A stretch of DNA of 64,000 nucleotides from IMG/VR virus record IMGVR_UViG_3300032334_001937, positions 1 to 64,000 of that record; one strand, written 5' to 3'. The notes under the pieces are model-generated. The model had not been told where the DNA came from. It was given only the letters and a program-made list of their open reading frames with translations, and did not search any database. Of this stretch, positions 579 through 24,165 are shown piece by piece (position 1 is the first letter of the stretch; the number at the start of each line of letters is the position of its first letter). A program made the position numbers and the translations under genes. This stretch comes from a virus.

Positions 579-607
579 TTGACTTTATAGCACGAAAGGA
601 GTATACT
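579..607 (+). promoter_or_regulatory. Consensus promoter, leaderless start at 614
   Basis: TTGACT (579-584), a 17-base spacer and TATACT (602-607) form a near-perfect sigma-70-type promoter. The ATG of the next gene is six bases after the -10 box, so the expected transcription start falls at or next to the A of the ATG. The GGAG inside the spacer cannot serve as a ribosome site on that transcript. Confidence 0.8.
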
Positions 608-613
608 GGGTAT

Positions 614-832
614 ATGACGTATGATGAACTTTTAGAGGCTGTAAATAGCCCAACTTATATGCAAAGCAGAACCTTGGATCATCCCTATATTGCCCTTCGT
701 GCAGTAGTGGAATTGCATAGTCCACAGGACATTACTTTGCCTAATGGTGATTGGGGAAGTAACTGCATTGAGTGTGATGGATTGTTTTATCCATGCCCGA
801 CTATTTTGGCTATTAAAAAAGAATTGCAATGA
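614..832 (+). CDS. Small conserved actinophage-type protein
   Basis: This 72-residue protein ends in a Cys-x2-Cys region followed by YPCPTI and a short helix. I recall that arrangement from small actinophage proteins of unknown role, possibly metal-binding. It is the first gene after a consensus promoter and appears to be translated from a leaderless mRNA. Its stop overlaps the next start as ATGA, which implies translational coupling. No function can be assigned. Confidence 0.7.
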   Translation: MTYDELLEAVNSPTYMQSRTLDHPYIALRAVVELHSPQDITLPNGDWGSNCIECDGLFYPCPTILAIKKELQ

Positions 833-1050
833 CAGACTGTAACTGCTGCACTGATCCAGATTGCTGTGCATGCTACTGTGATGACTTAGAGACTGACGGA
901 GGATATATGCAAAAGTATAATGAAATTAAATTTAAAAACACATGGATTCACTATGGTGGTTCATTTAAGCGTATTGGATTGGGTTTTAACATTGATTCAT
1001 ATTCCATAAACATAGACTTCCTTTGGTTCTGGGTAAGCATAGAGCGATAG
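829..1050 (+). CDS. Small cysteine-rich protein
   Basis: The 73-residue product has eight cysteines in its first 18 residues (CNCCTDPDCCACYC), a strong candidate metal-binding knuckle. The C-terminal half is beta-like and aromatic (IHYGGSFKRIGLGF onward) and resembles a small domain seen in actinophage proteins. It overlaps the stop of the previous gene by 4 bases (ATGA). The function is unknown. Confidence 0.65.
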   Translation: MTDCNCCTDPDCCACYCDDLETDGGYMQKYNEIKFKNTWIHYGGSFKRIGLGFNIDSYSINIDFLWFWVSIER

Positions 1051-1057
1051 CTTTTGG

Positions 1058-1063
1058 TATACT
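1058..1063 (+). promoter_or_regulatory. Extended -10, leaderless start at 1070
   Basis: TGGTATACT provides an extended -10, with TATACT exactly six bases before the ATG at 1070. There is no Shine-Dalgarno sequence between them. The pattern matches the leaderless starts elsewhere in the window. Confidence 0.65.
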
Positions 1064-1069
1064 AAGTAC

Positions 1070-1174
1070 ATGTGTGATTGTAGGGTGTGTCAGTTAGAGT
1101 CTAAGTACCCTGCCGAAATTGACGGCGTAATTGCAAAGGTATTTGAGTATATTATGGAGGGGCAAAATGGATGA
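1070..1174 (+). CDS. 34-residue Cys-rich leader ORF
   Basis: The ORF encodes MCDCRVCQLESKYPAEIDGV and 14 more residues, with a CxCxxC motif at the N-terminus. It starts leaderlessly six bases after a -10 box. Its TGA lies just inside the next gene, whose ATG is at 1167, so it probably delivers ribosomes to the oxygenase gene. The GGAGGGG that serves as the ribosome site of that gene lies within this ORF. It may also be a functional metal-binding micropeptide. Confidence 0.55.
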   Translation: MCDCRVCQLESKYPAEIDGVIAKVFEYIMEGQNG

Positions 1175-1943
1175 TCAGCTATGGAAAAAAATGACAGAGC
1201 ATACACCTCTTCATCAACTATTAAAGGTTGACGCTATAGATCAAGTAGAAAAGATAGAAGAAAACATTTGGGTTATAAAAAATTTTGTTTCACAAGAAAT
1301 TCTTGATGCATATAATTCATATATAAATTCTATAGATGAAAAAAAATGGTGGGAAAAAAATAAAGATTGGTGGGTTGGAAAGTATATACCAATAGAAACT
1401 AACTCTGTAATTTTTCCAGTTTCAGATCAACTTGTAAAGAAGTTAGAGTCAATAGTTAATGACAATATTTTTATTGGTGCTTTTGGTTCAATTCACAGAC
1501 TAACTCCAGGTCAAGGAATGTTTATTCATACAGACAATCCAACAGAAAAAAGACCTATCTATGATGAAAACAAAGAACAAGTTGGAGAAACTAACGGATA
1601 CAATAACTATTGCATTTTGGCAGCTGTTTTATATTTAAATAGTTTTAATGGTGGAAATTTATACTTTCCAGAAATTGGTGTTGAATACCATGGAAACCCT
1701 GGAGACTTAGTTTTATTCCCTGGAACTGGCAAAAGATACGATCACGGAGTAAGACCACTTGAAGAAGGATCAAACAGATATATAACTACTGGATTTGGTT
1801 ACGACAAAAAGGGTAAAGAGCTAAAAGAAGCTAGCTATGTATTTGAAAATGTTGAAACTGGAGAGTATATAGATATTGAACCATCAAAGGTTGTTAACAA
1901 TCCAGAAGAAGCAATGAAACTACCGCCAAGGCTTATAAATTGA
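1167..1943 (+). CDS. 2OG-Fe(II) oxygenase (prolyl-hydroxylase-like)
   Basis: This 258-residue protein has the cupin-fold signature of 2-oxoglutarate/Fe(II) dioxygenases. The HxD iron ligands are His121 and Asp123 (FIHTDN), the distal His is His193 (YDHGV), and Arg204 is the expected 2OG-binding residue. The core segment NGGNLYFPEIG is typical of the P4H-like group. The ATG at 1167 is preferred over an upstream in-frame start because GGAGGGG lies five bases before it. The next gene is a shorter paralogue sharing the N-terminal EENIWVI-NF block, so the pair looks like a tandem duplication. The substrate is unknown. Confidence 0.85.
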   Translation: MDDQLWKKMTEHTPLHQLLKVDAIDQVEKIEENIWVIKNFVSQEILDAYNSYINSIDEKKWWEKNKDWWVGKYIPIETNSVIFPVSDQLVKKLESIVNDNIFIGAFGSIHRLTPGQGMFIHTDNPTEKRPIYDENKEQVGETNGYNNYCILAAVLYLNSFNGGNLYFPEIGVEYHGNPGDLVLFPGTGKRYDHGVRPLEEGSNRYITTGFGYDKKGKELKEASYVFENVETGEYIDIEPSKVVNNPEEAMKLPPRLIN

Positions 1944-2530
1944 AAGATACAGAGCTAATATTTAATCATCCTAGTTTTAAAAGGGTGGAAGAAAACATTT
2001 GGGTTATACATAATTTTTTACTTGATTCTGAGCGTCAATCGTATATTAATGCAGCAGAACTTGCAGATGAGAGTGAATGGTGGAACCAAAATACTGGATG
2101 GTATGATGGAAAGTTTTTATCAATTGTAAATAAGCCTGTATTTAATGTGTCACTTGTAGTTGAACAAAGATTTGCAAGTTTATTTAAAAACAAAGATAAC
2201 TATACTTTTGGAAACCCTTCATCAATTCATAGAATTTTTCCAGATCAAGAAATGTTTGTTCATGCAGATTTTCCAGAGTTAGATAATATGGATCAGGATT
2301 GTGTGTTGTTTAATGCTGCTATATATCACAATGAATTTGATGGGGGTGAACTGTTTTATCCAGAGATAGGAATTGAATATAAGCCTTTGCCTGGGGATTT
2401 AGTCATACATCCTGGCACCACAAGGTATAGGCATGGAGTAAAAAAGGTTGTCGGAAACAAAATAAGATATATGTCAAATACCTGGGTAGCCGATGAGCTT
2501 GGGCTTAACATAAAGGTAACTGGATATTAA
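1940..2530 (+). CDS. 2OG-Fe(II) oxygenase, tandem paralogue
   Basis: The 196-residue paralogue of the preceding gene has iron ligands His108 and Asp110 (FVHADF) and His165 (YRHGV), with Arg176 as the 2OG contact. It starts at a TTG overlapping the previous TGA (TTGA), implying translational coupling. The shared EENIWVI-NF N-terminus and the DGGELFYPEIG core support duplication and divergence. The protein could hydroxylate a protein, sugar or small molecule; nothing here discriminates. Confidence 0.85.
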   Translation: MKDTELIFNHPSFKRVEENIWVIHNFLLDSERQSYINAAELADESEWWNQNTGWYDGKFLSIVNKPVFNVSLVVEQRFASLFKNKDNYTFGNPSSIHRIFPDQEMFVHADFPELDNMDQDCVLFNAAIYHNEFDGGELFYPEIGIEYKPLPGDLVIHPGTTRYRHGVKKVVGNKIRYMSNTWVADELGLNIKVTGY

Positions 2531-2543
2531 ATAAGTTTTAGTG

Positions 2544-2549
2544 TATACT
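2544..2549 (+). promoter_or_regulatory. -10 box upstream of 2570
   Basis: TATACT lies 20 bases before the ATG at 2570, followed by a GGAGG ribosome site. This promoter gives a normal leadered mRNA, in contrast to the leaderless starts nearby. No clear -35 is seen. Confidence 0.45.
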
Positions 2550-2569
2550 TATTATCTAGTGGAGGAAAA

Positions 2570-2737
2570 ATGCCAAAAGTATTATGTTTTAATTGTGGAG
2601 CATCGTTTGAAGTTAAGTATGAGATTAAAAATCCTACTAAGCAATGCCCTAAATGCCTTAATAAACCACAAAACAAAATGATGGATATTGGGTTTAGCAA
2701 GGATGACTTTTATAAAACTCAGGAATCTTTTGAGTGA
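2570..2737 (+). CDS. Small zinc-ribbon protein
   Basis: The 55-residue ORF starts MPKVLCFNCGASFEV and carries two Cys pairs (CxxC near residues 6-9 and 26-29), a simple zinc ribbon. A strong GGAGG ribosome site lies five bases upstream. Such proteins are common in phages as unassigned nucleic-acid- or protein-binding modules. Confidence 0.7.
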   Translation: MPKVLCFNCGASFEVKYEIKNPTKQCPKCLNKPQNKMMDIGFSKDDFYKTQESFE

Positions 2738-2788
2738 TCATTAATTACCTTGATTGGCTTAGTGTAAACAATATAGAATGGGAATAAA

Positions 2789-3061
2789 ATGAGTACTTGT
2801 GCTATTTGTCGTAGACATACAGATGCCCCTACAATTTGGCAGGGAGCAAAGCTTTGTATTGATTGCGTTCCCAAAGAACGTAAAGCATTTACATATGATG
2901 TAGTTGATGAAGATGTTATCCTTAAGATTGTTACTAGGTCCCCTGGAAAATGGATGCTGGTTGATAGAGAAACAGGGCAAACATATCAGGGTAATCCCAA
3001 TGGTTACTGGGATAGACTTGATCCAGTCATTAAAGATGTTGACAACAATAAGAAACCTTGA
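2789..3061 (+). CDS. Zinc-finger-type hypothetical protein
   Basis: The 90-residue protein has an N-terminal CAICRRH pair and a second CIDC pair, forming a four-cysteine zinc site, followed by a basic/acidic C-terminal domain. A TAGAAT box with an upstream TTGATT may drive it, and GGGA precedes the ATG. No specific function is recognised. Confidence 0.65.
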   Translation: MSTCAICRRHTDAPTIWQGAKLCIDCVPKERKAFTYDVVDEDVILKIVTRSPGKWMLVDRETGQTYQGNPNGYWDRLDPVIKDVDNNKKP

Positions 3062-3089
3062 TACACTTAATTAAAAGAAAAGAGGAATT

Positions 3090-3305
3090 ATGCTAGATAA
3101 ATTATTTAAGTACTGGTCAATTGGCATTTTGCCAGTTACGGCTGTTTTTGCATTAAGCTACATTATTGCTGTGGTACCTCACCTTGGTGCAGTTCTTGTT
3201 ACTCTTGCACTTTTTATTGGTACCCCAATTTTTGTTGGTAATGTAATCATGTTTGAAAAAGAACGCAAAGAACGTCTTAAGGCAAAGTTGAGCAAGAAAA
3301 AGTGA
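3090..3305 (+). CDS. Small two-helix membrane protein
   Basis: The 71-residue product has two hydrophobic segments (about residues 11-30 and 34-52) and a strongly basic C-terminus ending in several Lys. An AGAGGAATT ribosome site precedes the ATG. Its size and topology fit a small phage inner-membrane protein, holin-like in shape, but it lies far from the endolysin. Confidence 0.65.
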   Translation: MLDKLFKYWSIGILPVTAVFALSYIIAVVPHLGAVLVTLALFIGTPIFVGNVIMFEKERKERLKAKLSKKK

Positions 3306-3403
3306 AAGAGCCAAAGATTACAAAGATGGACTGGAAAGCACTAGGTTATTGGCCAGTTTATGAAGATGGCAAGCTAAAATGGGTGCCTCAAGAAAAAAAA
3401 TAA
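3302..3403 (+). CDS. 33-residue ORF, coupled
   Basis: A GTG start overlaps the stop of the upstream membrane protein (GTGA). The product is a short basic Trp/Tyr-containing peptide (starts VKEPKITKMDWKALGYW). The overlap and the lack of a gap support translation. No function is known. Confidence 0.45.
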   Translation: MKEPKITKMDWKALGYWPVYEDGKLKWVPQEKK

Positions 3404-3407
3404 GTGC

Positions 3408-3413
3408 TATAAT
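3408..3413 (+). promoter_or_regulatory. Extended -10, leaderless start at 3420
   Basis: TGCTATAAT is a perfect extended -10, with six bases (ggacac) between the -10 box and the ATG at 3420. There is no ribosome site, so transcription likely begins at the ATG. The promoter lies at the end of the preceding small ORF. Confidence 0.75.
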
Positions 3414-3419
3414 GGACAC

Positions 3420-4205
3420 ATGAAATCAATTTATGATATAGAAATGGCCTCTGCTGAAGGAAAATCTAACTTCTTGCAGCAGTTTAAAGGCAAAGCAGTC
3501 CTATTAATTAACACAACAGTAGGTTGTGGTAATGCTGGTCAGATGGAACCAATCCAATGGATCCAGGAAAAGTATGCTGGCGAAGACTTCTCTGTTGTTG
3601 CTATCCCAACTAATGACTACTGTGGTCCTGAAATTACTAAGGGCAGATGGGCAGAAGGAATTAGCTGTGGTCTTGATTCAAAGAATTATGGCGAAGAAGT
3701 ATATGGAGTTACATTTCCATTCTCAGAAATGATCGCATCAAACCCAATGGAGGTTCCAAAGGAATCACCTTGGAATGGTGTAGGTCATGGCAAGAATGGT
3801 CTTGGTCAAGACTTTCAGCCACCTCATGAGTTGTACCAAGAAGTTTGTCATCAGACAGCATTAGTTCGTCAAAAAAGAGCAGAGCTTGGTCTAGAAGACA
3901 AAAAAGATTATACTTCACAGTGGCTTAACGAGCATGACGGTGGTACGCTTATGTGCTGCAACTTTGAAAAGTATCTTATTGATAAGGATGGTTTTGTAGT
4001 AAAGCACTATGCTTGTACAACACTTAACTATGATGTAGAGCGTACATACAAAGAAGATCTTGCAGCTCAAGGAATCTTTGCTACACTAAATAAGGCTAGA
4101 ACACCTGAAATCTTTGAAGAAGAATATGCTGTTATTACAGGTCATATTGAATCATTGATTGCTGGCGAAAAGTCAATCTTAAACTCTTATGCTTTAACAG
4201 CATAA
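3420..4205 (+). CDS. Glutathione-peroxidase-like thioredoxin-fold protein
   Basis: This 261-residue protein keeps the skeleton of the glutathione peroxidase family: VLLINTTVGCGNAGQ with a candidate peroxidatic Cys36, VVAIPTNDYCGPE in place of the usual FPCNQF block, YGVTFPFSEMI, and NFEKYLIDKDGFVVKHY near residues 181-197. It is clearly longer than usual members (about 160-180 residues) because of an insertion near residues 105-175. The catalytic Gln and Trp of classical enzymes are not conserved, so activity is uncertain. It could be a peroxidase, a thiol oxidoreductase or a repurposed fold. It is a single-gene unit with its own leaderless promoter. Confidence 0.75.
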   Translation: MKSIYDIEMASAEGKSNFLQQFKGKAVLLINTTVGCGNAGQMEPIQWIQEKYAGEDFSVVAIPTNDYCGPEITKGRWAEGISCGLDSKNYGEEVYGVTFPFSEMIASNPMEVPKESPWNGVGHGKNGLGQDFQPPHELYQEVCHQTALVRQKRAELGLEDKKDYTSQWLNEHDGGTLMCCNFEKYLIDKDGFVVKHYACTTLNYDVERTYKEDLAAQGIFATLNKARTPEIFEEEYAVITGHIESLIAGEKSILNSYALTA

Positions 4206-4211
4206 AGAATT

Positions 4212-4670
4212 TTAATTAGCTTTAGATAAATCTACTAATAGATGTATTCTGTCAGTGTTTCCATTGTTTAAGACTTTGTGCCATTTTTTGTAATCAAACT
4301 CCCAGCACTCGCCAACCTTTATATTTATTTGGCTATTTCCACAATGAAACATAACTTCTTTGTTTGTCTTAATTGCTATGTGAAACCTTCTTAGGTCGTT
4401 AACTTCATCAGCATGCTCTCTAATATCTTCATGTGCTGGTAGTAATGTTACGGAACGTTGCATCATTTTCCCACCAAACCTATTAATTAAATCTTCTACT
4501 ATAGGTTCTATTAACAAGTCTAATTCTACATTTTGTTTGTGATTAATGCTTTTATAATTAGGAGCATTGTGCACATCTGGATCTGGATCTTTATCCCATA
4601 CTTGAGGGTTATCATCTAAAAACTTAATTATAGATTCAACACTATAGTTTGTTATTAGTTCAAAGTCCAT
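4212..4670 (-). CDS. Aspartyl/asparaginyl beta-hydroxylase-like oxygenase
   Basis: The product (152 residues from the ATG at 4670) has the core of the Asp/Asn beta-hydroxylase branch: His86-x-Asp88 (EHADE), a block LRRFHIAIKTN, VGECWEFDYKKWHKV with His121, and Arg131 in DRIHLLVDL. It starts one base inside the stop of the upstream oxygenase (TGATG), so the two oxygenases form a coupled pair. It converges on the GPx-like gene, 6 bases apart. The substrate is unknown. Confidence 0.82.
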   Translation of the reverse strand: MDFELITNYSVESIIKFLDDNPQVWDKDPDPDVHNAPNYKSINHKQNVELDLLIEPIVEDLINRFGGKMMQRSVTLLPAHEDIREHADEVNDLRRFHIAIKTNKEVMFHCGNSQINIKVGECWEFDYKKWHKVLNNGNTDRIHLLVDLSKAN

Positions 4671-5326
4671 CAGCAATCTTCAGATGTACTCATTGGAATG
4701 TTATCTGAATCATTCCAGCAATTTCCGTAAAGTGTGTGTCTTGAGTTACCAGCGGTAATCTTATTAACTCTATGGTGCAGTTTAGATTTTGTAATTATGA
4801 CCACTAATCTTCCTGCTTTTGGTTCAATCTTAATTGGTGGATCTATAAACTCTAGTTCTCCACCTTCAAAATCGTCATTAAGATATAGGCTAAATGATGC
4901 ATTAACATTCTCTGTTGGATCCTCATGAATTTGCATAGCAAAGTTAAGTGGCTTTTCAAAGTCTAGGTCTGGCTGAAGGTTTGCCTCTATCTCTTCGTCT
5001 GTCATATACTTAAATGTTTGCAGTGTGCCGTGTGATCTGTATGTCTTTGGAAGCACTGAAGCTAGTCTATCCCATATTTCATTAAAGATAGGAAAATGCA
5101 ATGTTACTGATTCAGCGTCTGGAATCATTACGTTTCCATTTTCATCATACCTTGGCTCAACATTAATAAACTTATTTAAGATATTCTTGTATGGGGAACG
5201 CATTGTTGTGTACCAGTCATTTGGATCGTCGCACCAAACCTTAAACCAGGCAAGTTCTTCTTGCGTAAGAAAGTCATCAATGTACCAGATATCTTCGTGT
5301 AGCTGCATTTTATTAAAATTAGTCAT
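4670..5326 (-). CDS. 2OG-Fe(II) oxygenase (P4H-like)
   Basis: The 218-residue protein has the DIWYIDDFL start, HxD ligands His134 and Asp136 (MQIHEDP), the NDDFEGGELEF core, the distal histidine at His184 or His185 (LHHRV) and Arg196. It begins from an apparently leaderless promoter (TATAAT at 5333-5338, six bases before the ATG) and is followed by the coupled beta-hydroxylase-like gene. It may act on a phage or host surface protein or on a sugar; this cannot be resolved here. Confidence 0.85.
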   Translation of the reverse strand: MTNFNKMQLHEDIWYIDDFLTQEELAWFKVWCDDPNDWYTTMRSPYKNILNKFINVEPRYDENGNVMIPDAESVTLHFPIFNEIWDRLASVLPKTYRSHGTLQTFKYMTDEEIEANLQPDLDFEKPLNFAMQIHEDPTENVNASFSLYLNDDFEGGELEFIDPPIKIEPKAGRLVVIITKSKLHHRVNKITAGNSRHTLYGNCWNDSDNIPMSTSEDC

Positions 5327-5332
5327 AAATCC

Positions 5333-5338
5333 ATTATA
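5333..5338 (-). promoter_or_regulatory. Extended -10, leaderless start at 5326
   Basis: The minus strand reads TGGTATAAT, then six bases, then the ATG at 5326. It is divergent from the promoter at 5360-5388 and the two RNA polymerase footprints would overlap. Confidence 0.7.
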
Positions 5339-5359
5339 CCATCAAGCTTAATAACCATA

Positions 5360-5388
5360 TTGACTAGGGGCAGTTTGTTTGATATACT
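5360..5388 (+). promoter_or_regulatory. Consensus promoter, leaderless start at 5395
   Basis: TTGACT (5360-5365), a 17-base spacer, TATACT (5383-5388), six bases and ATG at 5395. It has the same geometry as the promoter at 579-607. Confidence 0.8.
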
Positions 5389-5394
5389 GATTAT

Positions 5395-5601
5395 ATGCTA
5401 AACCTTCAAATACCAGACCCATTTGATACATTTGTACTCAAAAAGTATAAAAATGCAAAAGGGTCAAAGTATGACTTCTTTTCTGGTGAATGGTCTCATG
5501 AGTGTGGGGCCTGTAAAGAAACACTGTTTGCTCCAAGTAAAAAAGAAATCTTAAAATCAAGGCTTTATCATACTCGTAATTTGTGTCTAGGAGGATACTA
5601 A
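5395..5601 (+). CDS. Small Cys-containing protein
   Basis: The 68-residue protein has CGAC followed later by a single Cys (LCLGGY), a possible partial zinc site, and many basic residues. It appears leaderless, and its TAA overlaps the next ATG (TAATG). No family is recognised. Confidence 0.6.
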   Translation: MLNLQIPDPFDTFVLKKYKNAKGSKYDFFSGEWSHECGACKETLFAPSKKEILKSRLYHTRNLCLGGY

Positions 5602-5687
5602 TGGTACATGCTTTGTTTTTGATTCCCGCTTTTATAATGGGCTATGTTGCTTGCTATATTGCAATGACATATAAGGTAGATAAATAA
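5601..5687 (+). CDS. 28-residue membrane micropeptide
   Basis: The ORF encodes one hydrophobic helix (starts MVHALFLIPAFIMGYVACYI). It has a TAGGAGGA ribosome site and TAATG overlaps on both sides, so it sits cleanly in the operon. No role is known. Confidence 0.5.
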   Translation: MVHALFLIPAFIMGYVACYIAMTYKVDK

Positions 5688-5920
5688 TGGCTGATTGGAC
5701 AGATGAACTAACTGAAGAACAAAAAAATAATATTATGGATTTGATTGTTACAACAGTCAAAGAAATTAGGTATCAGATGGATCAAGATATTTTGTTTACC
5801 CAACAGATTTGGGAACGCAAAGGTTTTCTAAAAAGCCGTAGAACTCGCAAAGCATTTGATGCTTGTCGTGCAATTGTTAAAGGCAAGAATGAAGTATTTG
5901 AAGATCAAGATGAACTATAA
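5687..5920 (+). CDS. Hypothetical helical protein
   Basis: The 77-residue product is mostly helical, with an acidic start (DELTEEQKN) and a basic middle. It overlaps the preceding TAA by one base. It resembles small unassigned actinophage proteins; no domain is recognised. Confidence 0.6.
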   Translation: MADWTDELTEEQKNNIMDLIVTTVKEIRYQMDQDILFTQQIWERKGFLKSRRTRKAFDACRAIVKGKNEVFEDQDEL

Positions 5921-6083
5921 AGAAGTTATTGCAAAAACATTACAAGAGCATGGTCCAACTGCAATTAATATGCATAAGATAGAAGACCACTTTATAATGG
6001 ATATTGACTATGCTGTTATTGTAAATGCAATAGTTGAAGATTTAAAGTCTAATAATTTTGAAATAAAAAATATTATTCTTTAG
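5910..6083 (+). CDS. Hypothetical small helical protein
   Basis: The ATG at 5910 (MNYKEVIAKT) gives 57 residues with a plausible amphipathic helical pattern. An upstream in-frame ATG at 5856 would extend it through a region overlapping the previous gene and is less likely. It overlaps that gene by 11 bases and converges with the methyltransferase on the other strand, overlapping by 11 bases. Confidence 0.5.
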   Translation: MNYKEVIAKTLQEHGPTAINMHKIEDHFIMDIDYAVIVNAIVEDLKSNNFEIKNIIL

Positions 6084-6624
6084 TAATTACAAAGAGCATG
6101 TCATCAGGTGTATCACTAATTGATCTAAGATCGTAAAATGTATAGTCATACTTAAGTAAATGTCTTTTTATCGTTACTATATTTTCAGGAATCTCAATGT
6201 CTTCAATAAAATATTTACCACCTGATTTCAATTTTGGAAAATAATTATCAAAAGTTTTTAGCTGAGATTCAACTGTGTGTAACCCATCATCAATTATGTA
6301 ATCAAATGTTTCGTCCTGAAAGGTTAAGTCGCATGCTTTTTTGTCCATGGAATCAATAACATGTACCTTGTATTCTATTCCTTCTGGAACAACTCCATCA
6401 AATTTTGGATAAAGATCAACTCCAGATATTGTTGAATTTTCAAGATATGAATCCCACAAAAGAAGAGATCCCCCATATGCAACTCCAATTTCAAGTAATG
6501 AAACATCTTTTGTCTTGGTCATTTCTTTTTCATATATTGGTAGATAGTTATGAGGGTCATCTTTATCTGTAATAACCCTATCTAATATTTTTCTTAAATC
6601 TTCTAATTTTTCTTGTATACCCAT
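6073..6624 (-). CDS. Class I SAM-dependent methyltransferase
   Basis: The 183-residue protein has a SAM-binding motif I (SLLEIGVAYGGSLLLW, about residues 42-57), an acidic residue at the end of beta-2 (ISGVDLYPKF) and the motif DYIIDDGLHTVESQ (about 108-121). The last is typical of MTase_24 or macrocin-O-methyltransferase-like enzymes that act on sugars or natural products. It is a single gene with a leaderless promoter. It may modify the same surface glycan as the methyltransferase at 12099. Confidence 0.8.
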   Translation of the reverse strand: MGIQEKLEDLRKILDRVITDKDDPHNYLPIYEKEMTKTKDVSLLEIGVAYGGSLLLWDSYLENSTISGVDLYPKFDGVVPEGIEYKVHVIDSMDKKACDLTFQDETFDYIIDDGLHTVESQLKTFDNYFPKLKSGGKYFIEDIEIPENIVTIKRHLLKYDYTFYDLRSISDTPDDMLFVITKE

Positions 6625-6630
6625 TTTTTA

Positions 6631-6636
6631 ATTATA
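6631..6636 (-). promoter_or_regulatory. Extended -10, leaderless start at 6624
   Basis: The minus strand reads TGCTATAAT, six bases, ATG. It is divergent from the tRNA promoter at 6651-6679, with only 14 bases between the elements. Confidence 0.75.
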
Positions 6637-6650
6637 GCATAAAAGATAAG

Positions 6651-6679
6651 TTGACAATAAAACATATTCACTATATACT
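6651..6679 (+). promoter_or_regulatory. Consensus promoter for the tRNA cluster
   Basis: TTGACA (6651-6656), a 17-base spacer and TATACT (6674-6679) form a full consensus promoter. The first tRNA begins 12 bases after the -10 box. This is one of the strongest promoters in the window and probably drives all four tRNAs. Confidence 0.85.
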
Positions 6680-6691
6680 TATATTAAATAC

Positions 6692-6765
6692 GCAGCAGTA
6701 GCTTAGTTGGTTAAAGCCCCGAACTCATAATTCGGTAATCGTAGGTTCAAGTCCTACCTGCTGCA
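6692..6765 (+). tRNA. tRNA with CAT anticodon (Met or Ile2)
   Basis: A 74-base cloverleaf: acceptor GCAGCAG/CTGCTGC, D-stem GCTT/AAGC, anticodon stem CCGAA/TTCGG with loop CTCATAA, and T-stem GTAGG/CCTAC with loop TTCAAGT. The anticodon CAT could be elongator Met, or Ile decoding ATA if C34 becomes lysidine. The first acceptor pair is G-C, so it is not an initiator tRNA. CCA is not encoded. Confidence 0.9.
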
Positions 6766-6789
6766 CTGCTATAATTAAATAGCAAATAT

Positions 6790-6862
6790 TGGTCCATAGC
6801 TCAATTGGCAGAGCGTCCGACTGTTAATCGGAAGGTTGTAGGATCGTGCCCTACTGGACCAG
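6790..6862 (+). tRNA. tRNA-Asn (GTT)
   Basis: A 73-base cloverleaf: acceptor TGGTCCA/TGGACCA starting with a T-A pair, discriminator G, anticodon stem TCCGA/TCGGA with loop CTGTTAA, and T-stem GTAGG/CCTAC. The T-A first pair and G73 fit bacterial Asn tRNAs. The T-loop (ATCGTGC) is atypical, beginning AT rather than TT. Confidence 0.88.
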
Positions 6863-6866
6863 CAAT

Positions 6867-6940
6867 GCGGATATCGCATAGTGATAGTGCGTAACCTTGC
6901 CAAGGTTAATGTGCGGGTTTGATTCCCGCTATCCGCTCCA
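6867..6940 (+). tRNA. tRNA-Gly (GCC), CCA encoded
   Basis: Acceptor GCGGATA/TATCCGC with discriminator T, anticodon stem TAACC/GGTTA with loop TTGCCAA, and T-stem GCGGG/CCCGC with loop TTTGATT. The mature body ends at 6937 and the next three bases are CCA, so the 3' end is genome-encoded. It starts only four bases after the Asn tRNA, which suggests processing from one transcript. Confidence 0.88.
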
Positions 6941-6941
6941 A

Positions 6942-7014
6942 GCCTTCGTAGCTCAGGGGATAGAGCGACGGACTTCTAATCCGCAGGTCGCTGGTTCAAT
7001 TCCAGCCGAGGGCA
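6942..7014 (+). tRNA. tRNA-Arg (TCT)
   Basis: Acceptor GCCTTCG/CGAGGGC with one T-G pair, D-stem GCTC/GAGC, anticodon loop CTTCTAA, T-stem GCTGG/CCAGC with loop TTCAATT and discriminator A. It reads AGA, the Arg codon favoured in AT-rich phage genes. It begins one base after the Gly CCA. Confidence 0.9.
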
Positions 7015-7021
7015 CTTAGGG

Positions 7022-7027
7022 TATAAT
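7022..7027 (+). promoter_or_regulatory. -10 box, leaderless start at 7034
   Basis: TATAAT lies eight bases after the tRNA-Arg end and six bases before the ATG at 7034. No TGN extension or clear -35 is present, so this is the weakest of the leaderless set. Read-through from the tRNA promoter is an alternative. Confidence 0.55.
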
Positions 7028-7033
7028 AAAAAG

Positions 7034-7123
7034 ATGAAAACTATGTATTACTTGTATAAGATTTATTATGCAATAAAAAATATTTTTAAAAAAGAAAATC
7101 ATAAAGATAGGTATATTTATTAA
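7034..7123 (+). CDS. 29-residue leader ORF
   Basis: A short basic, Tyr/Ile/Lys-rich ORF (MKTMYYLYKIYYAIKNIF onward) starts six bases after a TATAAT box and ends with a TAA overlapping the ATG of the SGNH gene (TAATG). The following gene has no good ribosome site, so this leader probably delivers ribosomes by termination-reinitiation. It may also be a small membrane peptide. Confidence 0.5.
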   Translation: MKTMYYLYKIYYAIKNIFKKENHKDRYIY

Positions 7124-9026: not shown

Positions 9027-9030
9027 GTAT

Positions 9031-9654: not shown

Positions 9655-11099
9655 TTTTAGGCATTAATGAAACATCACATGATGCATCTGTCTCTTTAAT
9701 TCAAGATGGTAATATATTGTTTGCTGGACATGCTGAAAGATATAGCAAGAAAAAAAATGACTGGTATATCAATGATAGTTTAATTAAAGATGCGCTACAA
9801 TATGGTTTTCCAGATAGCATAGCCTACTATGAGAGACCCCTTCTTAAGGCTTCTAGGCTGCTTTTAAGGGGTGGATCTGGGGATTGGAGACCTAAGTATC
9901 AAATAAACAATATCTTTGGTAGGCCAGTACCAGTAAAATCATTTAAGCATCACTACTCACATGCCTGCGCTGGTTACTATACTAGTCCTTTTAATGATTC
10001 TGTTATTGTAGTTCTTGATGCCATTGGCGAATACAATACCTCCACAGTTTGGGTAGGAGAAGGAGAGCAAATAAAACTAAAGTTTAAACAGAACTATCCT
10101 GTAAGCTTTGGTTTATTTTATTCTGCATTTACACAGTTACTTGGCCTCATGCCAAACCAAGAAGAATACATTATGATGGGTATGGCTGCATATGGAGATT
10201 GGAAGAGATACTACAAAGAGGTAGATGAATACTTCACAAACTATCATACACAAAAGTACAACTTCCATAAGGGTATCCATGACTGGGGCATGTTAATTAA
10301 TGATCAGGATAGGTTTGATATTGCTGCTGCCGTTCAAGTTGTTTACACAACAAGGTTGATGGAATTTATGCGGATGGCTAAACTAATAACTGGTAAAAAG
10401 AACTTGGTATTAATGGGAGGCTGTGCATTAAACTCATCTGCCAATACAAGTCTTTGGAAATTGTTTGATGATGTTTGGATTATGCCAAACCCAGGTGACG
10501 CTGGATCATCACTTGGTGCAGCAACAGCCTTGTATGGAAAACATGTAGATTGGAAGTCACCTTACCTTGGTCATGACCTTGGCGGTAAGTATCCTGTACA
10601 AGAAATTATAGACGGACTACTTAAAGATAAAATAGTCGCAGTAGCAGCAGGTAGAGCAGAATATGGACCAAGAGCATTAGGAAATAGATCTATACTTGCT
10701 GATCCTAGAGATCCAAATATTAAAGATAAAGTTAATCTAATTAAACAAAGAGAACTCTTTAGACCATTTGCGCCAGTAGTTATGGAAGAGCATGCCTCTA
10801 AATGGTTTGACATGGAGTTTGCTTCTCCTTATATGCAGTACACAGTTAAATGTTTACAGCCAAACAAAATACCTTCAGTTGTTCATGAAGATGGAACCTC
10901 TAGAGTCCAAACAGTTAATAAAGAACAGCACAGAGGATTATGGATGGTTTTAAATAAGTTTTATTTAAAGACAGGTGTTCCAGTTTTGCTAAACACAAGC
11001 CTAAACATTAAAGGACAACCGCTACTAAACGATCAAAAAGACATTGCTGATTGGGAAAAAGAATACAACTTTAAGATTATTCAGGGCAGCAGTCTTTAA
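9648..11099 (+). CDS. Carbamoyltransferase (NodU/CmcH family)
   Basis: From the ATG at 9648 the protein has 483 residues and covers both lobes of the family. The N-terminal kinase-like lobe has LGINETSHDASVSL, HHYSHACAGY and VVLDAIGEYN. The C-terminal YrdC-like lobe has EYGPRALGNRSILADPRD, RELFRPFAPVV and LLNTSLNIKGQP. The family transfers carbamoyl from carbamoyl phosphate through carbamoyl-AMP to a hydroxyl of a sugar or antibiotic. The ATG at 9648 is preferred over an upstream TTG because the product then begins at MLILGINETSHDAS. The substrate is likely a glycan; DNA carbamoylation is a less likely alternative. Confidence 0.9.
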   Translation: MLILGINETSHDASVSLIQDGNILFAGHAERYSKKKNDWYINDSLIKDALQYGFPDSIAYYERPLLKASRLLLRGGSGDWRPKYQINNIFGRPVPVKSFKHHYSHACAGYYTSPFNDSVIVVLDAIGEYNTSTVWVGEGEQIKLKFKQNYPVSFGLFYSAFTQLLGLMPNQEEYIMMGMAAYGDWKRYYKEVDEYFTNYHTQKYNFHKGIHDWGMLINDQDRFDIAAAVQVVYTTRLMEFMRMAKLITGKKNLVLMGGCALNSSANTSLWKLFDDVWIMPNPGDAGSSLGAATALYGKHVDWKSPYLGHDLGGKYPVQEIIDGLLKDKIVAVAAGRAEYGPRALGNRSILADPRDPNIKDKVNLIKQRELFRPFAPVVMEEHASKWFDMEFASPYMQYTVKCLQPNKIPSVVHEDGTSRVQTVNKEQHRGLWMVLNKFYLKTGVPVLLNTSLNIKGQPLLNDQKDIADWEKEYNFKIIQGSSL

Positions 11100-11556
11100 A
11101 TAGTTTATCTATCTTGGACGCTGGAACACAATTAGGAACTGGCTTACCATTTTTGCCTGGCTTCATTCCTCTTTGAACATAACCATCCCAGCACGGTCCT
11201 TGCTTAGCAAAACTAAAGATTCCCTCAAATGGATCAAAATCTTTTTGTGCTGCAACTATTTTTCTTGACCATGAAAAACCAGCATCTCCACCCCATGCAT
11301 CCCACATGATACGACCATTAGATGGATTAGATGTATTGTTAAAATCTTTACCTTTTTTATCTACTTCATGCCTTGAAAAAAATGAGTACATTCTCTTAAC
11401 TGTATCAAGAGACATTGCAGCACCGCTAACTATATCGCTTGCTCTTCCCCAGCCTACAGGAGTGCCAGCACCAGTTGCCTTGCCATCTTCTTTCCACTTC
11501 AATGCACGTCTAGCAGCAGCCTTCATGCCAGCGTTTGGGGTATATGTATCAGCCAT
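11077..11556 (-). CDS. Conserved phage protein with SFFSRHEVDK domain
   Basis: The 159-residue protein contains a block (MSLDTVKRMYSFFSRHEVDK, then MWDAWGGDAGFSWSRKIV) that I recall as a small domain often fused to, or near, phage head-maturation proteases and other phage enzymes. Its C-terminus has a second block ending GKPVPNCVP. The role is unknown, possibly DNA- or virion-associated. Its leaderless-type promoter is divergent from that of the Dps-like gene, and its 3' end overlaps the carbamoyltransferase gene. Confidence 0.7.
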   Translation of the reverse strand: MADTYTPNAGMKAAARRALKWKEDGKATGAGTPVGWGRASDIVSGAAMSLDTVKRMYSFFSRHEVDKKGKDFNNTSNPSNGRIMWDAWGGDAGFSWSRKIVAAQKDFDPFEGIFSFAKQGPCWDGYVQRGMKPGKNGKPVPNCVPASKIDKLFKDCCPE

Positions 11557-11563
11557 AACATCT

Positions 11564-11588
11564 ATTTTACCATAGACTGTGGTACAAT
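11564..11588. promoter_or_regulatory. Back-to-back extended -10 boxes
   Basis: The plus strand reads ATTTTACCA, seven bases, then TGGTACAAT. This gives TGGTAAAAT on the minus strand for the gene at 11556 (seven-base spacing to its ATG) and TGGTACAAT on the plus strand for the gene at 11595 (six-base spacing). The arrangement is almost a palindrome, and the two polymerases could hardly bind together, so it may act as a mutually exclusive switch. Confidence 0.65.
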
Positions 11589-11594
11589 GTTTAT

Positions 11595-12095
11595 ATGGAA
11601 GAAATGATTAATAAGCTAAAAGAATTGCTTGCAACCTCAATTGCCCTTAAGCATAAAGCACAGGGGTATCACTGGAATGTAGAAACTGATGATTTTCCTC
11701 AATATCACGAATTTTTTGGTGAGATTTATGAGGCTATAGATGCAACAATTGACCCTATGGCAGAGTGGATTCGTATGATGGGTGCCTATGCTCCATTTAA
11801 ACTTTCACGACTAGTATCATTAAGCACACTTCCAGAGACAGATGTTACAACAGACCACGAAGATATGTCTGCTGATCTACTCAAGGATCACAAAGCTGCA
11901 GCAGATGCATTTGGTGCTGCTTCCATAATGGCTGCCAACTTAGGACAAAAAGGACTTGAAAATTTTCTTGCTGATTGCATGACAACTCATCAAAAATATA
12001 CATGGCAACTTACAGCAATTGGTTCTGAATCATTGATGGAAGCATCAACAGAAAACATGGAACCTGCTGGTTCAAGACTTCCCGAAGAAGACTAA
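11595..12095 (+). CDS. Dps/ferritin-like protein
   Basis: The 166-residue four-helix-bundle protein has a Dps ferroxidase signature: AQGYHWNVETDDFPQYHEFFGEIYEAIDATIDPMAEW, about residues 22-58, with the His, Asp and Glu ligands in the right order. Dps proteins oxidise iron with peroxide and can coat DNA. The start has only a -10 box six bases upstream (leaderless). It would protect replicating phage DNA, fitting the GPx-like and thioredoxin genes elsewhere. Confidence 0.88.
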   Translation: MEEMINKLKELLATSIALKHKAQGYHWNVETDDFPQYHEFFGEIYEAIDATIDPMAEWIRMMGAYAPFKLSRLVSLSTLPETDVTTDHEDMSADLLKDHKAAADAFGAASIMAANLGQKGLENFLADCMTTHQKYTWQLTAIGSESLMEASTENMEPAGSRLPEED

Positions 12096-17101: not shown

Positions 17102-17358
17102 ACATCACCCCATTGCTCTTTGCTCTTGTGTTTATTAAACTCTCGTGAAATTTCTCCACCTTCTAAGTATACACCACCCCAAACACCCCACTCTTTGCCT
17201 GACACACCGTTAGCAAAACATATTTTTGCAACAGGACATGAGGCACAAAAATTATCTATGTTTGATCTTAGTTCAACATCATCTTCGTATTTATCAAAAT
17301 ATAAATTTGTGTCTAATCCAAGACATTTAGCCTGATCTTTCCATAAATGTTGTTTCAA
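17071..17358 (-). CDS. whiB: WhiB-family Fe-S transcription regulator
   Basis: The 95-residue protein has the four cluster cysteines Cys12, Cys38, Cys41 and Cys47 (C...CxxCxxxxxC) and the GVWGG turn at 58-62, followed by a basic region that contacts DNA. WhiB proteins bind a 4Fe-4S cluster and act with sigma-A; phage versions can repress host whiB genes. The family is restricted to Actinobacteria and their phages, so it is the best host marker here. A TTG start with GGAGTAATCC upstream is used. Confidence 0.92.
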   Translation of the reverse strand: MKQHLWKDQAKCLGLDTNLYFDKYEDDVELRSNIDNFCASCPVAKICFANGVSGKEWGVWGGVYLEGGEISREFNKHKSKEQWGDVWQSLTTETN

Positions 17359-17571: not shown

Positions 17572-17579
17572 TTTATACC

Positions 17580-18315: not shown

Positions 18316-18332
18316 GTCTGTCCTAATTATTA

Positions 18333-18869: not shown

Positions 18870-18891
18870 TTTTCTCCTAGCTTATACTATG

Positions 18892-18900: not shown

Positions 18901-18902
18901 GA

Positions 18903-20108: not shown

Positions 20109-20257
20109 TAATTTGCTTCTTTCTTTATGATAGTTGGCTTATTGTGATTAGCATAATAAGGTCCAAGATCTGCTTTAATACGACCATCTTTTCTTAGCTT
20201 AACAATTCTGCCGTCTTTAATTTGTGTAGCATTAAACGGATGCTTACTATTTCCCAT
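20108..20257 (-). CDS. 49-residue basic peptide
   Basis: The ORF encodes MGNSKHPFNATQIKDGRIV and 30 more, basic overall. It overlaps neighbours as TAATG on both sides, so translation is very likely. No family is recognised. Confidence 0.55.
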   Translation of the reverse strand: MGNSKHPFNATQIKDGRIVKLRKDGRIKADLGPYYANHNKPTIIKKEAN

Positions 20258-20478
20258 TATTTTAACCTTGCTCTCTCGTCAATAATTTCAACCATAAACT
20301 TCATAATCTTGTCGTACCCAACTGCATTATCTACAACGGAATTGTAGTGATGAGAACAAAAAAGAAGTTCTCCAGAATGCCCAATTACTTTTACGTATGC
20401 CTGAGCAGCACATCTATCACAACGATCTGTTGCATCTAAAAGCCAAACCTGCTCTTCTTGTTCAATCATTGTATTCAT
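20257..20478 (-). CDS. DUF7455-like zinc-binding protein
   Basis: The 73-residue protein contains the motif DATDRCDRCAAQAYVKVI and LLFCSHHYNSV: two Cys-x2-Cys-type pairs and a His cluster. This small family is found in Actinobacteria and their phages, supporting the host assignment. Its ATG overlaps the stop of the leaderless 11-residue ORF at 20475-20510 (ATGA). Confidence 0.75.
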   Translation of the reverse strand: MNTMIEQEEQVWLLDATDRCDRCAAQAYVKVIGHSGELLFCSHHYNSVVDNAVGYDKIMKFMVEIIDERARLK

Positions 20479-20510
20479 ATTGTACTACAACTTTCTCTAT
20501 AGTCTTTCAT
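20475..20510 (-). CDS. 11-residue leaderless leader ORF
   Basis: MKDYRESCSTI is read from an ATG exactly six bases after TATAAT (20522-20517) and stops with a TGA overlapping the next ATG (ATGA). The downstream gene has no ribosome site of its own. This mini-ORF therefore looks like a ribosome-loading leader peptide. Confidence 0.5.
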   Translation of the reverse strand: MKDYRESCSTI

Positions 20511-20516
20511 ATATAA

Positions 20517-20545
20517 ATTATACATCAAGATGAACTATTTGTCCA
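20517..20545 (-). promoter_or_regulatory. Promoter for 20510/20478
   Basis: On the minus strand TGGACA (20545-20540), a 17-base spacer and TATAAT (20522-20517). Five of six -35 bases match consensus. The expected transcript starts at the ATG of the 11-residue leader. Confidence 0.7.
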
Positions 20546-20547
20546 AT

Positions 20548-21324: not shown

Positions 21325-21326
21325 CT

Positions 21327-21607: not shown

Positions 21608-21807
21608 TACTTAACTCCTTTCCCAAATTTTGCCCAAAGTCTTTCATGAATAAAATATCCAAGGGCTTCAATTCCAATATACAGGAGTGCTCCTAAACTG
21701 GCATACTCCCATTCTCCAGTGAATAAATAAATAATTCCAGCAAGAATTACTAGATGGAATGTTTCCCAGGTAATAGTTTTAATTGATGACTTCTTGGTTG
21801 ATTCCAT
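21607..21807 (-). CDS. DUF2061-like membrane protein
   Basis: The 66-residue protein has KTITWETFHLVILAG and LGYFIHERLWAKFG, matching the DUF2061 family (a two-helix membrane protein with a conserved HER-W motif). It lies right after the endolysin (TAATG), so a role in lysis or membrane permeability is plausible. Confidence 0.78.
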   Translation of the reverse strand: MESTKKSSIKTITWETFHLVILAGIIYLFTGEWEYASLGALLYIGIEALGYFIHERLWAKFGKGVK

Positions 21808-22601
21808 TACTTAGCCTTCAATGCCTTTAGTGTTGCTTGATCAACAATACCTGTAACTAGAAGTCCAGCTTTCTTTTGAAATTCTTGAACAGCCTTTGCA
21901 GTACCTGGACCAAAGGCGCCATCTGCTTTAATTCCAAGAAGTCTCTGAATAGTCTTTACGCCAGTTCCTTTTGAACCATTCTTAAGTGGTTTAAATGCTG
22001 CTGGTGCTGCTTTCTTAGCAGGTGCTGATGGTAATGATGCCTTAGCTGGTGCATCAGAAGATCCGACCTTAGACAACAAAGGAAGATTTTCTTCACCTGC
22101 ATATACTGGACGACCCCAACCAACAATTGCATTCATAAGCTTTAGCTTATTATCCTTAACGTATGCACGAGTTTTTTCTACGCACATTCCGCCATTTCGC
22201 TGATCTCCCTTTGCAGTTCCTGAAGTATTTCCTTCAATAACTTGGATAGTTCCGTTTCCGTTATTCTTAATACAAATGCCAACATGTGAAATACGATTTA
22301 CGCCATCATCTGGAAAATCAAAATAAATCCAGTCTCCTGGAGTTGGATCATCATTACGAGCATCTGCCCAGCGATCCTTCTTCTTAAACCAATCAGACGC
22401 TGCTACTGTTGCTGCTGTTTTTGGAAAATCTTTTACTCCTGCTGTGTATGCACACCAAGAAACAAATGACTGACACCATGGTAGAAAGTTTGCACCTGTC
22501 CACTTGCCATATTTTGTTTCATTATCTTTTGGACCTTCAATAGTCCCAATTTCTGCTTTAGCAACCTCAATAATTGCTTCTAGTGAACCTTTAACCGCCA
22601 C
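21807..22601 (-). CDS. Endolysin: CHAP-type domain plus PG-binding domain
   Basis: The 264-residue protein has an N-terminal amidase/endopeptidase domain of CHAP type with catalytic Cys43 (LPWCQSFVSWC) and a His in RISHVGICI. An Ala/Pro/Lys linker (about 165-200) follows, then a PG_binding_1 domain (LLGIKADGAFGPGTAKAVQEF). No signal peptide is present, so export needs a holin. A GTG start with AGGAGG seven bases upstream and its own promoter (22630-22658) are visible. Confidence 0.9.
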   Translation of the reverse strand: MAVKGSLEAIIEVAKAEIGTIEGPKDNETKYGKWTGANFLPWCQSFVSWCAYTAGVKDFPKTAATVAASDWFKKKDRWADARNDDPTPGDWIYFDFPDDGVNRISHVGICIKNNGNGTIQVIEGNTSGTAKGDQRNGGMCVEKTRAYVKDNKLKLMNAIVGWGRPVYAGEENLPLLSKVGSSDAPAKASLPSAPAKKAAPAAFKPLKNGSKGTGVKTIQRLLGIKADGAFGPGTAKAVQEFQKKAGLLVTGIVDQATLKALKAK

Positions 22602-22629
22602 TTAAAACCTCCTAAAGTTTTGTATTACA

Positions 22630-22658
22630 AGTATACCAAAGAATGAGCCTTTTTGCAA
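22630..22658 (-). promoter_or_regulatory. Promoter of the endolysin gene
   Basis: The minus strand shows TTGCAA (22658-22653), a 17-base spacer and TATACT (22635-22630), then an AGGAGG ribosome site and GTG. Lysis can thus be timed separately from the genes upstream. Confidence 0.75.
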
Positions 22659-22692
22659 CTTGCTCAGGTTGTCCCAGGTAGCGTCCTGAAAT

Positions 22693-23112: not shown

Positions 23113-23139
23113 TTTTATTCCCCTTTCAAGCGAATAAGA

Positions 23140-23168
23140 TAGTGCACCCCCATTTGGCAAGTGCACTA
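23140..23168 (-). promoter_or_regulatory. Palindrome at the Hsp20 promoter
   Basis: TAGTGCAC (23140-23147) and GTGCACTA (23161-23168) are perfect 8-base inverted repeats separated by 13 bases. They lie just downstream of a TATAAT box (minus strand, 23177-23172), across the expected start site. An operator or a 5' stem-loop (thermosensor-like) is possible. It is not CIRCE or HAIR by sequence. Confidence 0.6.
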
Positions 23169-23171
23169 CCT

Positions 23172-23177
23172 ATTATA
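23172..23177 (-). promoter_or_regulatory. -10 box of the Hsp20 gene
   Basis: TATAAT on the minus strand, 60 bases before the ATG at 23112, gives the Hsp20 mRNA a leader of about 50 bases. No good -35 is seen, so an activator or special sigma factor may matter. Confidence 0.5.
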
Positions 23178-23183
23178 CACTAT

Positions 23184-23945
23184 TTATGCTTTATTCGCTA
23201 CATACAAGGCAGAAAACATTGGTGCAGCAACTGATGTTCCAGTTACAGTTGTTTTAACATTCTTGTAGTTATTTACAATAACATCACCACGAAAAGTAAC
23301 ATCCATTCCTGGTCCAGAGTTTGTATAGGTTGCAAGCGGACCAGAAGGCTTTGTTGCACCAACCCCAATAACATCTGTTACGCAGGATGGAAAACCAACC
23401 ATATTATTTTTTCCATCATTACCTGTTGCTACGTGAACTGGAATTCCCTGTGCTTTAAGTGATTGAACTGCTGCAGAAAAAACTAAATTTGTTGGACATG
23501 TGCCAGCAGTAAAGTTAATTCTTGACTGACTAATTGATACTGCATCAACACTATACTTTGATGCATTTTCAGATACCCACTTAATAGCCTTATCAAGCGC
23601 ATCTCCACTATTTAAAAATGATGTTGGGAATACATCGCTGATTCTTACAAAAATAATCTTTACATTTGGAGCTACAAGTTTAGCTGCTTGTGTAATATTA
23701 TATCCGTGATCAATATTTGAAATACTCCAGTTTGGAACATTTGCAGTTCCAGCTCCTTCTGCAAAAGATTTTCCATTTGCACAAGATTGATTTGATGTAA
23801 AGCATGCTTCATAGATAACTCCAGGAATCTTACTTGAATCAATTGCAGAGTCAATGATTACCAAAACCTTTTCATCTGCTGCATTTACAGGACTAACTAC
23901 AGTAAAACCTAGTGCTAGTACTACTCCAATAATTAACTTCTTCAT
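23184..23945 (-). CDS. Secreted subtilisin-like serine protease
   Basis: The 253-residue protein has a signal peptide (about 1-22) and the four subtilase landmarks in order: Asp32 (VLVIIDSAID), His80 (NIDHGYN), Asn176 (ATGNDGKNN) and Ser238 (TGTSVAAP). It is small and lacks a clear pro-domain, so it could be exported active. It probably acts outside the cell on surface proteins or on a competitor. A subtilase is rare in phages. Confidence 0.88.
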   Translation of the reverse strand: MKKLIIGVVLALGFTVVSPVNAADEKVLVIIDSAIDSSKIPGVIYEACFTSNQSCANGKSFAEGAGTANVPNWSISNIDHGYNITQAAKLVAPNVKIIFVRISDVFPTSFLNSGDALDKAIKWVSENASKYSVDAVSISQSRINFTAGTCPTNLVFSAAVQSLKAQGIPVHVATGNDGKNNMVGFPSCVTDVIGVGATKPSGPLATYTNSGPGMDVTFRGDVIVNNYKNVKTTVTGTSVAAPMFSALYVANKA

Positions 23946-23947
23946 TA

Positions 23948-24130
23948 TTACTCCATTACCTTAATTACTACTTGACATGGGTCGCCACCTTGGTCCCACT
24001 CTTCCATCTCTTCTTCACTCATATAGGGATCGCCCTCATGAGTATTACAGAACGGTTCAGTTACCCATCCCCGTTCAATTCCGTTTTCTAGCCATATACG
24101 AAACTCTAAATGGTTTTCTTCTGTTATCAT
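23948..24130 (-). CDS. Small conserved actinophage protein
   Basis: The 60-residue acidic protein has GWVTEPFCNTHEGDPYMSEEE and GGDPC, a motif set I recall from many actinophage genomes, function unknown. Its promoter, TTGACG-N17-TATACT followed by six bases and the ATG, makes it a leaderless gene. Confidence 0.72.
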   Translation of the reverse strand: MITEENHLEFRIWLENGIERGWVTEPFCNTHEGDPYMSEEEMEEWDQGGDPCQVVIKVME

Positions 24131-24136
24131 GTTTTA

Positions 24137-24165
24137 AGTATACTCCTAAACACTAACTACGTCAA
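24137..24165 (-). promoter_or_regulatory. Consensus promoter, leaderless start at 24130
   Basis: On the minus strand TTGACG (24165-24160), a 17-base spacer and TATACT (24142-24137), then six bases and ATG. It overlaps the 3' end of the Ntn-hydrolase gene, so the small protein and subtilase can be expressed independently. Confidence 0.78.

Follow-up and report, generated by a model that had tools for sequence, protein, structure and literature searches.

A conserved -10 box six bases before ATG marks probable leaderless genes in a distant relative of Streptomyces phages

Introduction

Leaderless translation is known in actinobacteria, where a TANNNT box some 12 bp before the start codon marks leaderless genes and where on average about 19% of the genes are predicted to be leaderless (Zheng et al. 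2011, PMC3160421). In Corynebacterium glutamicum, 21% of the leaderless mRNAs start with GUG (PMC3890552), and leaderless small open reading frames (ORFs) that are coupled to the next gene have been described in mycobacteria (Shell et al. 2015, PMC4633059). PMC4633059 and PMC3160421 also mention phage genes transcribed from their AUG, in lambda and P2 of Escherichia coli. The present analysis concerns the first 64 kb, henceforth called the window, of the 112,019-base virus record IMGVR_UViG_3300032334_001937, which has a G + C content of 37%. In this window the initial annotation had described eleven ATG starts with a -10 box placed six bases (once seven bases) ahead, and had proposed that they form a class of leaderless promoters, known in kind from actinobacteria, by which a phage might time its genes according to ribosome type.

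A single peak at spacing six

All eleven starts were found where they had been described (Table 1), ten of them with a spacing of six bases and 11556 with a spacing of seven. The statement that nearly all carry a TTGAC-type -35 box at 17 bases or a TGN extension also holds, 7034 alone having neither: the former is found at 614, 5395 and 24130, with TGGACA at the same distance for 20510, and the latter at 1070, 3420, 5395, 11595, 5326, 6624 and 11556. Because the -10 box ends six bases ahead of the ATG, the A of the ATG is the expected transcription start.

For the comparison with shuffled sequence that had been suggested, occurrences of TATA[AC]T-Nx-ATG (TATAMT) were tallied per spacing on both strands of the entire genome, and 300 dinucleotide shuffles of the genome served as the null model. 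These counts, on which the statistics rest, use no gene calls, a self-written gene caller having been set aside because it trimmed many starts. Spacing six occurs 20 times, as opposed to 5.0 ± 2.3 times in the shuffles, none of which reaches 20 (0/300), and it forms a single peak, with 5 sites at spacing five, 8 at spacing seven and a mean of 5.1 (maximum 12) over all other spacings. As about 5 sites are expected from the shuffles, some 15 of the 20 exact matches lie beyond chance. A TANNNT box whose first T lies some 12 bp ahead of the start codon, the mark of leaderless genes of the actinobacterial type, is thus present above chance.

The same peak can be found in relatives, whose loci are given as L-numbers; the queries used to collect them were three proteins, glutathione peroxidase (3420), portal and DnaE polymerase. 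In the accessory region of 21 deduplicated loci, spacing six was counted 162 times, compared with a mean of 22 for each other spacing. Amongst 209 non-redundant sites, T occupies position -15 in 58% and G position -14 in 67%, i.e., an extended -10 box, the -35 distance is most often 17, and a Shine-Dalgarno sequence is absent from 207 and present at 2. In this set of sites ATG is enriched at spacing six (153 vs 21), and TTG, looked for at the same spacing, is not.

Amongst further phages, spacing six exceeds the per-spacing mean in the Streptomyces phages BillNye (5 vs 0.6), Annadreamy (7 vs 2.0) and Wakanda (5 vs 1.1), with Naboo at 2 vs 1.0, as well as in large relatives of the phage in the window (27 vs 4.7, 25 vs 6.7, 19 vs 7.4 and 12 vs 4.0). 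No such peak is seen in the similarly AT-rich phage T4 (12 vs 9.0), and lambda, phiC31, D29 and OneUp have zero exact TATAMT-N6-ATG sites.

Conservation of the spacing

Across orthologs that are 40-60% identical, the spacing of six is kept while the hexamer and its flanks change. The 2OG oxygenase gene at 5326 has orthologs that are mostly 54-59% identical and carry TATAAT, TATGAT, TATCAT or TATTAT as the hexamer; exactly six bases are found in nearly all of those with an identified ATG start. Poorly aligned loci and a few where the script picked up no ATG start are the exceptions. For the small protein at 110301, whose orthologs are mostly 39-46% identical, the spacing is six in 22 of 22 loci, and it is likewise six at orthologs of, among further genes, 5395, 7034, 11595 and 110135. 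The orthologs of 24130 in L003, L009 and L029 retain TTGACA, the -10 box and the spacing of six despite changed N-termini. Leaderless families have a fixed spacing, in contrast to Shine-Dalgarno-led families, in which leader length is mostly variable.

Two of the eleven starts are weaker members. For 614 there are too few orthologs, and its spacing is not confirmed in them, while the region homologous to 11556, the weakest member, is in relatives often part of a longer protein or follows another start.

Table 1. Starts, associated genes and Shine-Dalgarno-led contrasts (window positions; the last row gives genome positions)
Feature	Position	Strand	Basis or remark
TTGACT-17-TATACT, N6, ATG 614, 72-aa ORF	602..832, -10 at 602-607	+	sequence; AGGAG just upstream of -10
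TGG-TATACT, N6, ATG 1070, 34-aa mini-ORF (MCDCRVC...)	1058..1174, -10 at 1058-1063	+	74% identical, spacing equal in L034
TGC-TATAAT, N6, ATG 3420, glutathione peroxidase-like gene	3408..4205, -10 at 3408-3413	+	Pfam PF00255
TGG-TATAAT, N6, ATG 5326, 2OG-Fe(II) oxygenase gene	4670..5338, -10 at 5333-5338	-	domain match; orthologs
TTGACT-17 plus TGA-TATACT, N6, ATG 5395, 68-aa ORF	5383..5601, -10 at 5383-5388	+	spacing 6 in L034, L021, L025, L001
TGC-TATAAT, N6, ATG 6624, methyltransferase-like gene	6073..6636, -10 at 6631-6636	-	Pfam PF13578; spacing equal in L034
TATAAT, N6, ATG 7034, 29-aa mini-ORF directly after tRNA-Arg	7022..7123, -10 at 7022-7027	+	conserved in relatives
TGG-TAAAAT, N7, ATG 11556, 159-aa ORF	11077..11569, -10 at 11564-11569	-	layout equal in L034; weakest member
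TGG-TACAAT, N6, ATG 11595, Dps/ferritin-like gene	11583..12095, -10 at 11583-11588	+	Pfam PF00210; spacing 6 in L034, L026, L023
TATAAT, N6, ATG 20510, 11-aa mini-ORF	20475..20522, -10 at 20517-20522	-	ATGA overlap with DUF7455 gene
DUF7455 gene, coupled to 11-aa mini-ORF	20257..20478	-	PF24254, E=3e-16
TTGACG-17-TATACT, N6, ATG 24130, 60-aa ORF	23948..24142, -10 at 24137-24142	-	orthologs in L003, L009, L029
Contrast, Shine-Dalgarno-led: TGCTATAAT, 30 bases, AGGAGG, ATG 63653	63333..63692	-	sequence
Contrast, Shine-Dalgarno-led: TGGTATAAT, 20 bases, AGGAG, ATG 50593	50087..50622	-	sequence
Contrast, Shine-Dalgarno-led: TGGTATACT, 28 bases, AGGAGG, GTG 22601, CHAP/peptidoglycan-binding lysin	21807..22638	-	sequence
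Spacing-six sites beyond the window	78931, 82336, 90335, 108896, 110135, 110301	-, +, -, +, +, + (in this order)	genome count

Two initiation modes for the same gene

The glutathione peroxidase gene (gpx) is found in both forms: of 39 sequences, 19 are leaderless and 20 Shine-Dalgarno-led. In the leadered version, recognisably the same -10 region lies at 27-29 bases, about 21 extra bases with AGGAGG being placed ahead of the ATG, and the protein alignments start at the 3420-type ATG in all eight aligned sequences. The gpx tree requires about four changes, a number that is uncertain because few branches are well supported, and a single Shine-Dalgarno clade is rejected (p=4e-5); as an alternative to repeated switching, the upstream region may have been swapped by recombination. 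For the PERGQP gene, located near the polymerase region, there are likewise a leaderless and a leadered form. Judged by these upstream regions, the two modes of initiation are exchangeable for the same gene, and one kind of extended -10 promoter serves leaderless and leadered genes alike.

Regional distribution

Comparison by genome region was limited to the TGN-TATAMT promoters of relatives, where a promoter-level bias that is inflated because orthologs are shared among loci gives 77 leaderless and 33 Shine-Dalgarno-led promoters in the accessory region, 7 and 90 in the structural region, plus 46 at spacing 5 or 7, and 25 and 43 in the replication region. When orthologs are collapsed and each protein family is weighed once, the ratio of leaderless to leadered families is 20:11 in the accessory region (gpx being mixed), 2:5 in the structural region (with one mixed) and 1:9 in the replication region. 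The accessory region differs from the latter two combined (3:14; Fisher p=0.0025) and from the replication region (p=0.004), while the difference from the structural region alone weakens to p=0.11. Nearly all of the 46 structural promoters at spacing 5 or 7 belong to one pre-portal gene with spacing seven; as its -10 box is seven bases from the ATG, this structural gene may also be leaderless. In the genome under study the corresponding site lies beyond the window at 73108 (-) (L041:9108), ahead of the first pre-portal gene, with the conserved TGGTATACT and seven bases to the ATG.

At two places in the window, divergent genes each have a -10 box, with start codons only 38 bp (11556/11595) and 68 bp (5326/5395) apart, and similar pairs exist in relatives. 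Since such pairs leave only 38 to 68 bases between the start codons, compactness of the accessory gene cassettes is a plausible reason for the regional bias. In one relative (L014:4938-4983) the start codons of a divergent leaderless pair are 40 bp apart and the two promoters are arranged as a nearly perfect inverted repeat (ATTATACCCT...AGGGTATAAT), both thereby occupying the same site.

Probable leaderless mini-ORFs

Three of the eleven sites open mini-ORFs of 34 (1070), 29 (7034) and 11 codons (20510) and not genes of usual size, and the end of each mini-ORF overlaps the following gene's start codon. The first overlaps by 8 bases the ATG of a 2OG oxygenase gene at 1167, the second ends in TAATG on the gene at 7123-8070, and the third overlaps the DUF7455 gene by ATGA. 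The 29-aa peptide is 59-83% conserved, with spacing six, in L004, L005, L007 and L034, and in L006 and L036 an AAGGAG leader takes the place of the leaderless form. In relatives, the mini-ORF ahead of DUF7455 is often absent and the -10 box lies directly at the DUF7455 gene; in L018, L022, L029, L031 and others, no base separates the box from the first ATG (spacing 0), and another ATG follows in frame at 6 or 9. The overlap of a small ORF stop with a downstream start, seen here in three cases, resembles the coupled leaderless small ORFs of mycobacteria; in the published mycobacterial example the linkage and not the sequence was kept (PMC4633059), in contrast to the conserved 29-aa peptide.

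Kinship and probable host

The portal and DnaE proteins are 45% and 53% identical, respectively, to those of Streptomyces phages, and the gene order RNR-portal-protease-capsid is shared with BillNye; judged by these proteins, the phage is distantly related to the Streptomyces phages of the family Stanwilliamsviridae. A WhiB-family protein, belonging to an actinobacterial regulator family, is encoded at 17170-17343 (-) (PF02467, E=1e-11), and among 14 control genomes WhiB was present in Corynebacterium only. WhiB, the DUF7455 protein and the kinship with Streptomyces phages together suggest that the host is probably an actinobacterium. A nucleotide search of a phage collection for a close relative returned a single tRNA match and nothing else, and when bacterial genomes were searched for the host with a glutathione-peroxidase profile, just two Flavobacteriaceae-type matches (27%) resulted.

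Probable leaderless genes and the question of timing

The spacing, its conservation, the lack of Shine-Dalgarno sequences and the enrichment of ATG only uphold that part of the earlier interpretation which had the mRNAs lack a leader, and it is very probable that they are leaderless mRNAs starting at the ATG from host sigma-A promoters, in compact cassettes and in a probable actinobacterial host. Sigma-A type promoters, often with an extended -10 box (TGN-TATAMT) and sometimes with TTGAC at 17 bases, would place the start on the A of the ATG, and the host ribosome would directly bind the 5'-terminal AUG. Promoter and gene would form a compact, self-contained cassette, some cassettes opening with a leaderless mini-ORF that would pass ribosomes to the next gene via the stop/start overlap. 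The phage would in this way use the ordinary leaderless translation of its host and economise on space in the accessory region, which is crowded and has genes on both strands.

In kind, the class is ordinary for the probable host phylum, and with it the phage probably keeps to the practice of an actinobacterial host. With the actinobacterial leaderless genes (PMC3160421, PMC4633059, PMC3890552) it shares the -10 box whose first T lies about 12 bp before the start, the lack of a Shine-Dalgarno sequence, its frequency, changes of mode between orthologs and coupled small ORFs. It differs in belonging to a phage and in being concentrated in one genome region, leaderless genes in C. glutamicum having no functional preference (PMC3890552). 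The leaderless mRNAs of lambda and P2 resemble it in that a phage gene is transcribed from the AUG, but are isolated cases, in contrast to the recurrent promoter class in this genome and its relatives.

Several observations weigh against this reading. About a quarter of the exact-match sites (about 5 of 20) should be due to chance, and that at 43963 (-), which is clearly not a gene start, belongs to this part. GTG is not in excess at spacing six (9 vs 6.8 in the non-redundant set), so that only ATG is enriched in the phage, as compared to about 21% GUG in C. glutamicum (PMC3890552). The Bacillus phage SPO1 (NC_011421) also has a modest excess of TATAMT-N6-ATG (11 vs 4.7 per spacing), and the count alone is therefore not exclusive to actinophages. 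Finally, at 614 and 24130 an AGGAG lies 12 bases ahead of the ATG, where a longer transcript could use it. At both, the AGGAG abuts the TATACT box (AGGAGTATACT; boxes at 602-607 and 24137-24142) with TTGAC at 17 bases, and it possibly acts as a Shine-Dalgarno sequence for read-through transcripts as well as a spacer.

Of the alternatives, the idea of timing survives best in a milder form, which is left because the regional bias is real: the phage family would split its genome into leaderless accessory genes and mostly Shine-Dalgarno-led replication and virion genes, so that production of the accessory proteins would continue even if infection saturated or impaired Shine-Dalgarno initiation. 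This is improbable. The stricter version, in which the phage would maintain two translation classes for ribosomes that, once altered late in infection or under stress, prefer leaderless mRNAs, could point to the same family-level bias and to a report that leaderless translation holds up better under stress in Mycobacterium tuberculosis (PMC8485053). However, behind one and the same -10 box gpx has a leaderless start in about half of the relatives and a Shine-Dalgarno leader in the others, the two classes share one promoter type, structural genes are also members (the pre-portal gene with 46 promoters in relatives; the PERGQP gene), and the leaderless mRNAs of C. glutamicum show no preference for functional categories (PMC3890552). 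Among ribosome or sigma modifiers, no match to S21, S30AE (HPF-type), IF3 or Sigma70_r2 was found in the genome, although unknown factors could still exist. The exchangeable modes, the promoter type common to both classes and the lack of such matches argue against a strict timing code, which is very unlikely, and there is no support for the suggestion of gene timing by ribosome type.

It might further be assumed that the promoters are real but that the translated start lies further downstream or that the genes are mainly read from longer upstream transcripts, the leader not being zero. In favour are the AGGAG motifs at 614 and 24130, the spacings at DUF7455 in relatives, mostly 0 and 9 and not 6, and the 11-aa ORF at 20510, which is too short for certainty. 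Yet with no Shine-Dalgarno sequence at 207 of 209 sites, all eight aligned gpx proteins beginning at the listed ATG, and neither GTG nor TTG enriched at the same place, this explanation is highly improbable. That chance or T/A-rich gene starts produced the motif would fit the AT-rich genome, for which chance predicts about 5 of the 20 exact sites, but is refuted for the class as a whole, though single sites may be chance, by a peak at one spacing with five and seven at or near background and no shuffle reaching it, by the strong conservation in orthologs and by the lack of a peak in T4.

What sets the class apart is its extent in a phage, its restriction to ATG, its regional bias and its natural leaderless/leadered pairs. 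The leaderless genes that are cited for phages are mostly isolated cases; here they recur with a precise, conserved spacing. The class improves the annotation of start codons and exposes mini-ORFs missed by gene finders, and gpx, as a natural series with one promoter behind leaderless and leadered versions, would make it possible to test directly how much a phage gains from a leader.

Neighbouring genes

A cluster of likely redox and auxiliary genes at 1131-12095 in the window comprises three 2OG-Fe(II) oxygenases, a glutathione peroxidase, a Dps/ferritin, a carbamoyltransferase (9636-11099) and a methyltransferase, and within which four tRNA genes (Met, Asn, Gly, Arg) lie at 6692-7015. Some small leaderless ORFs are rich in cysteine, namely MCDCRVC... 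(1070-1174) and 41-44-aa proteins with KCYFC or KCFFC (genome position 110301, L043:6301; conserved in about 22 loci), and possibly encode small metal-binding proteins.

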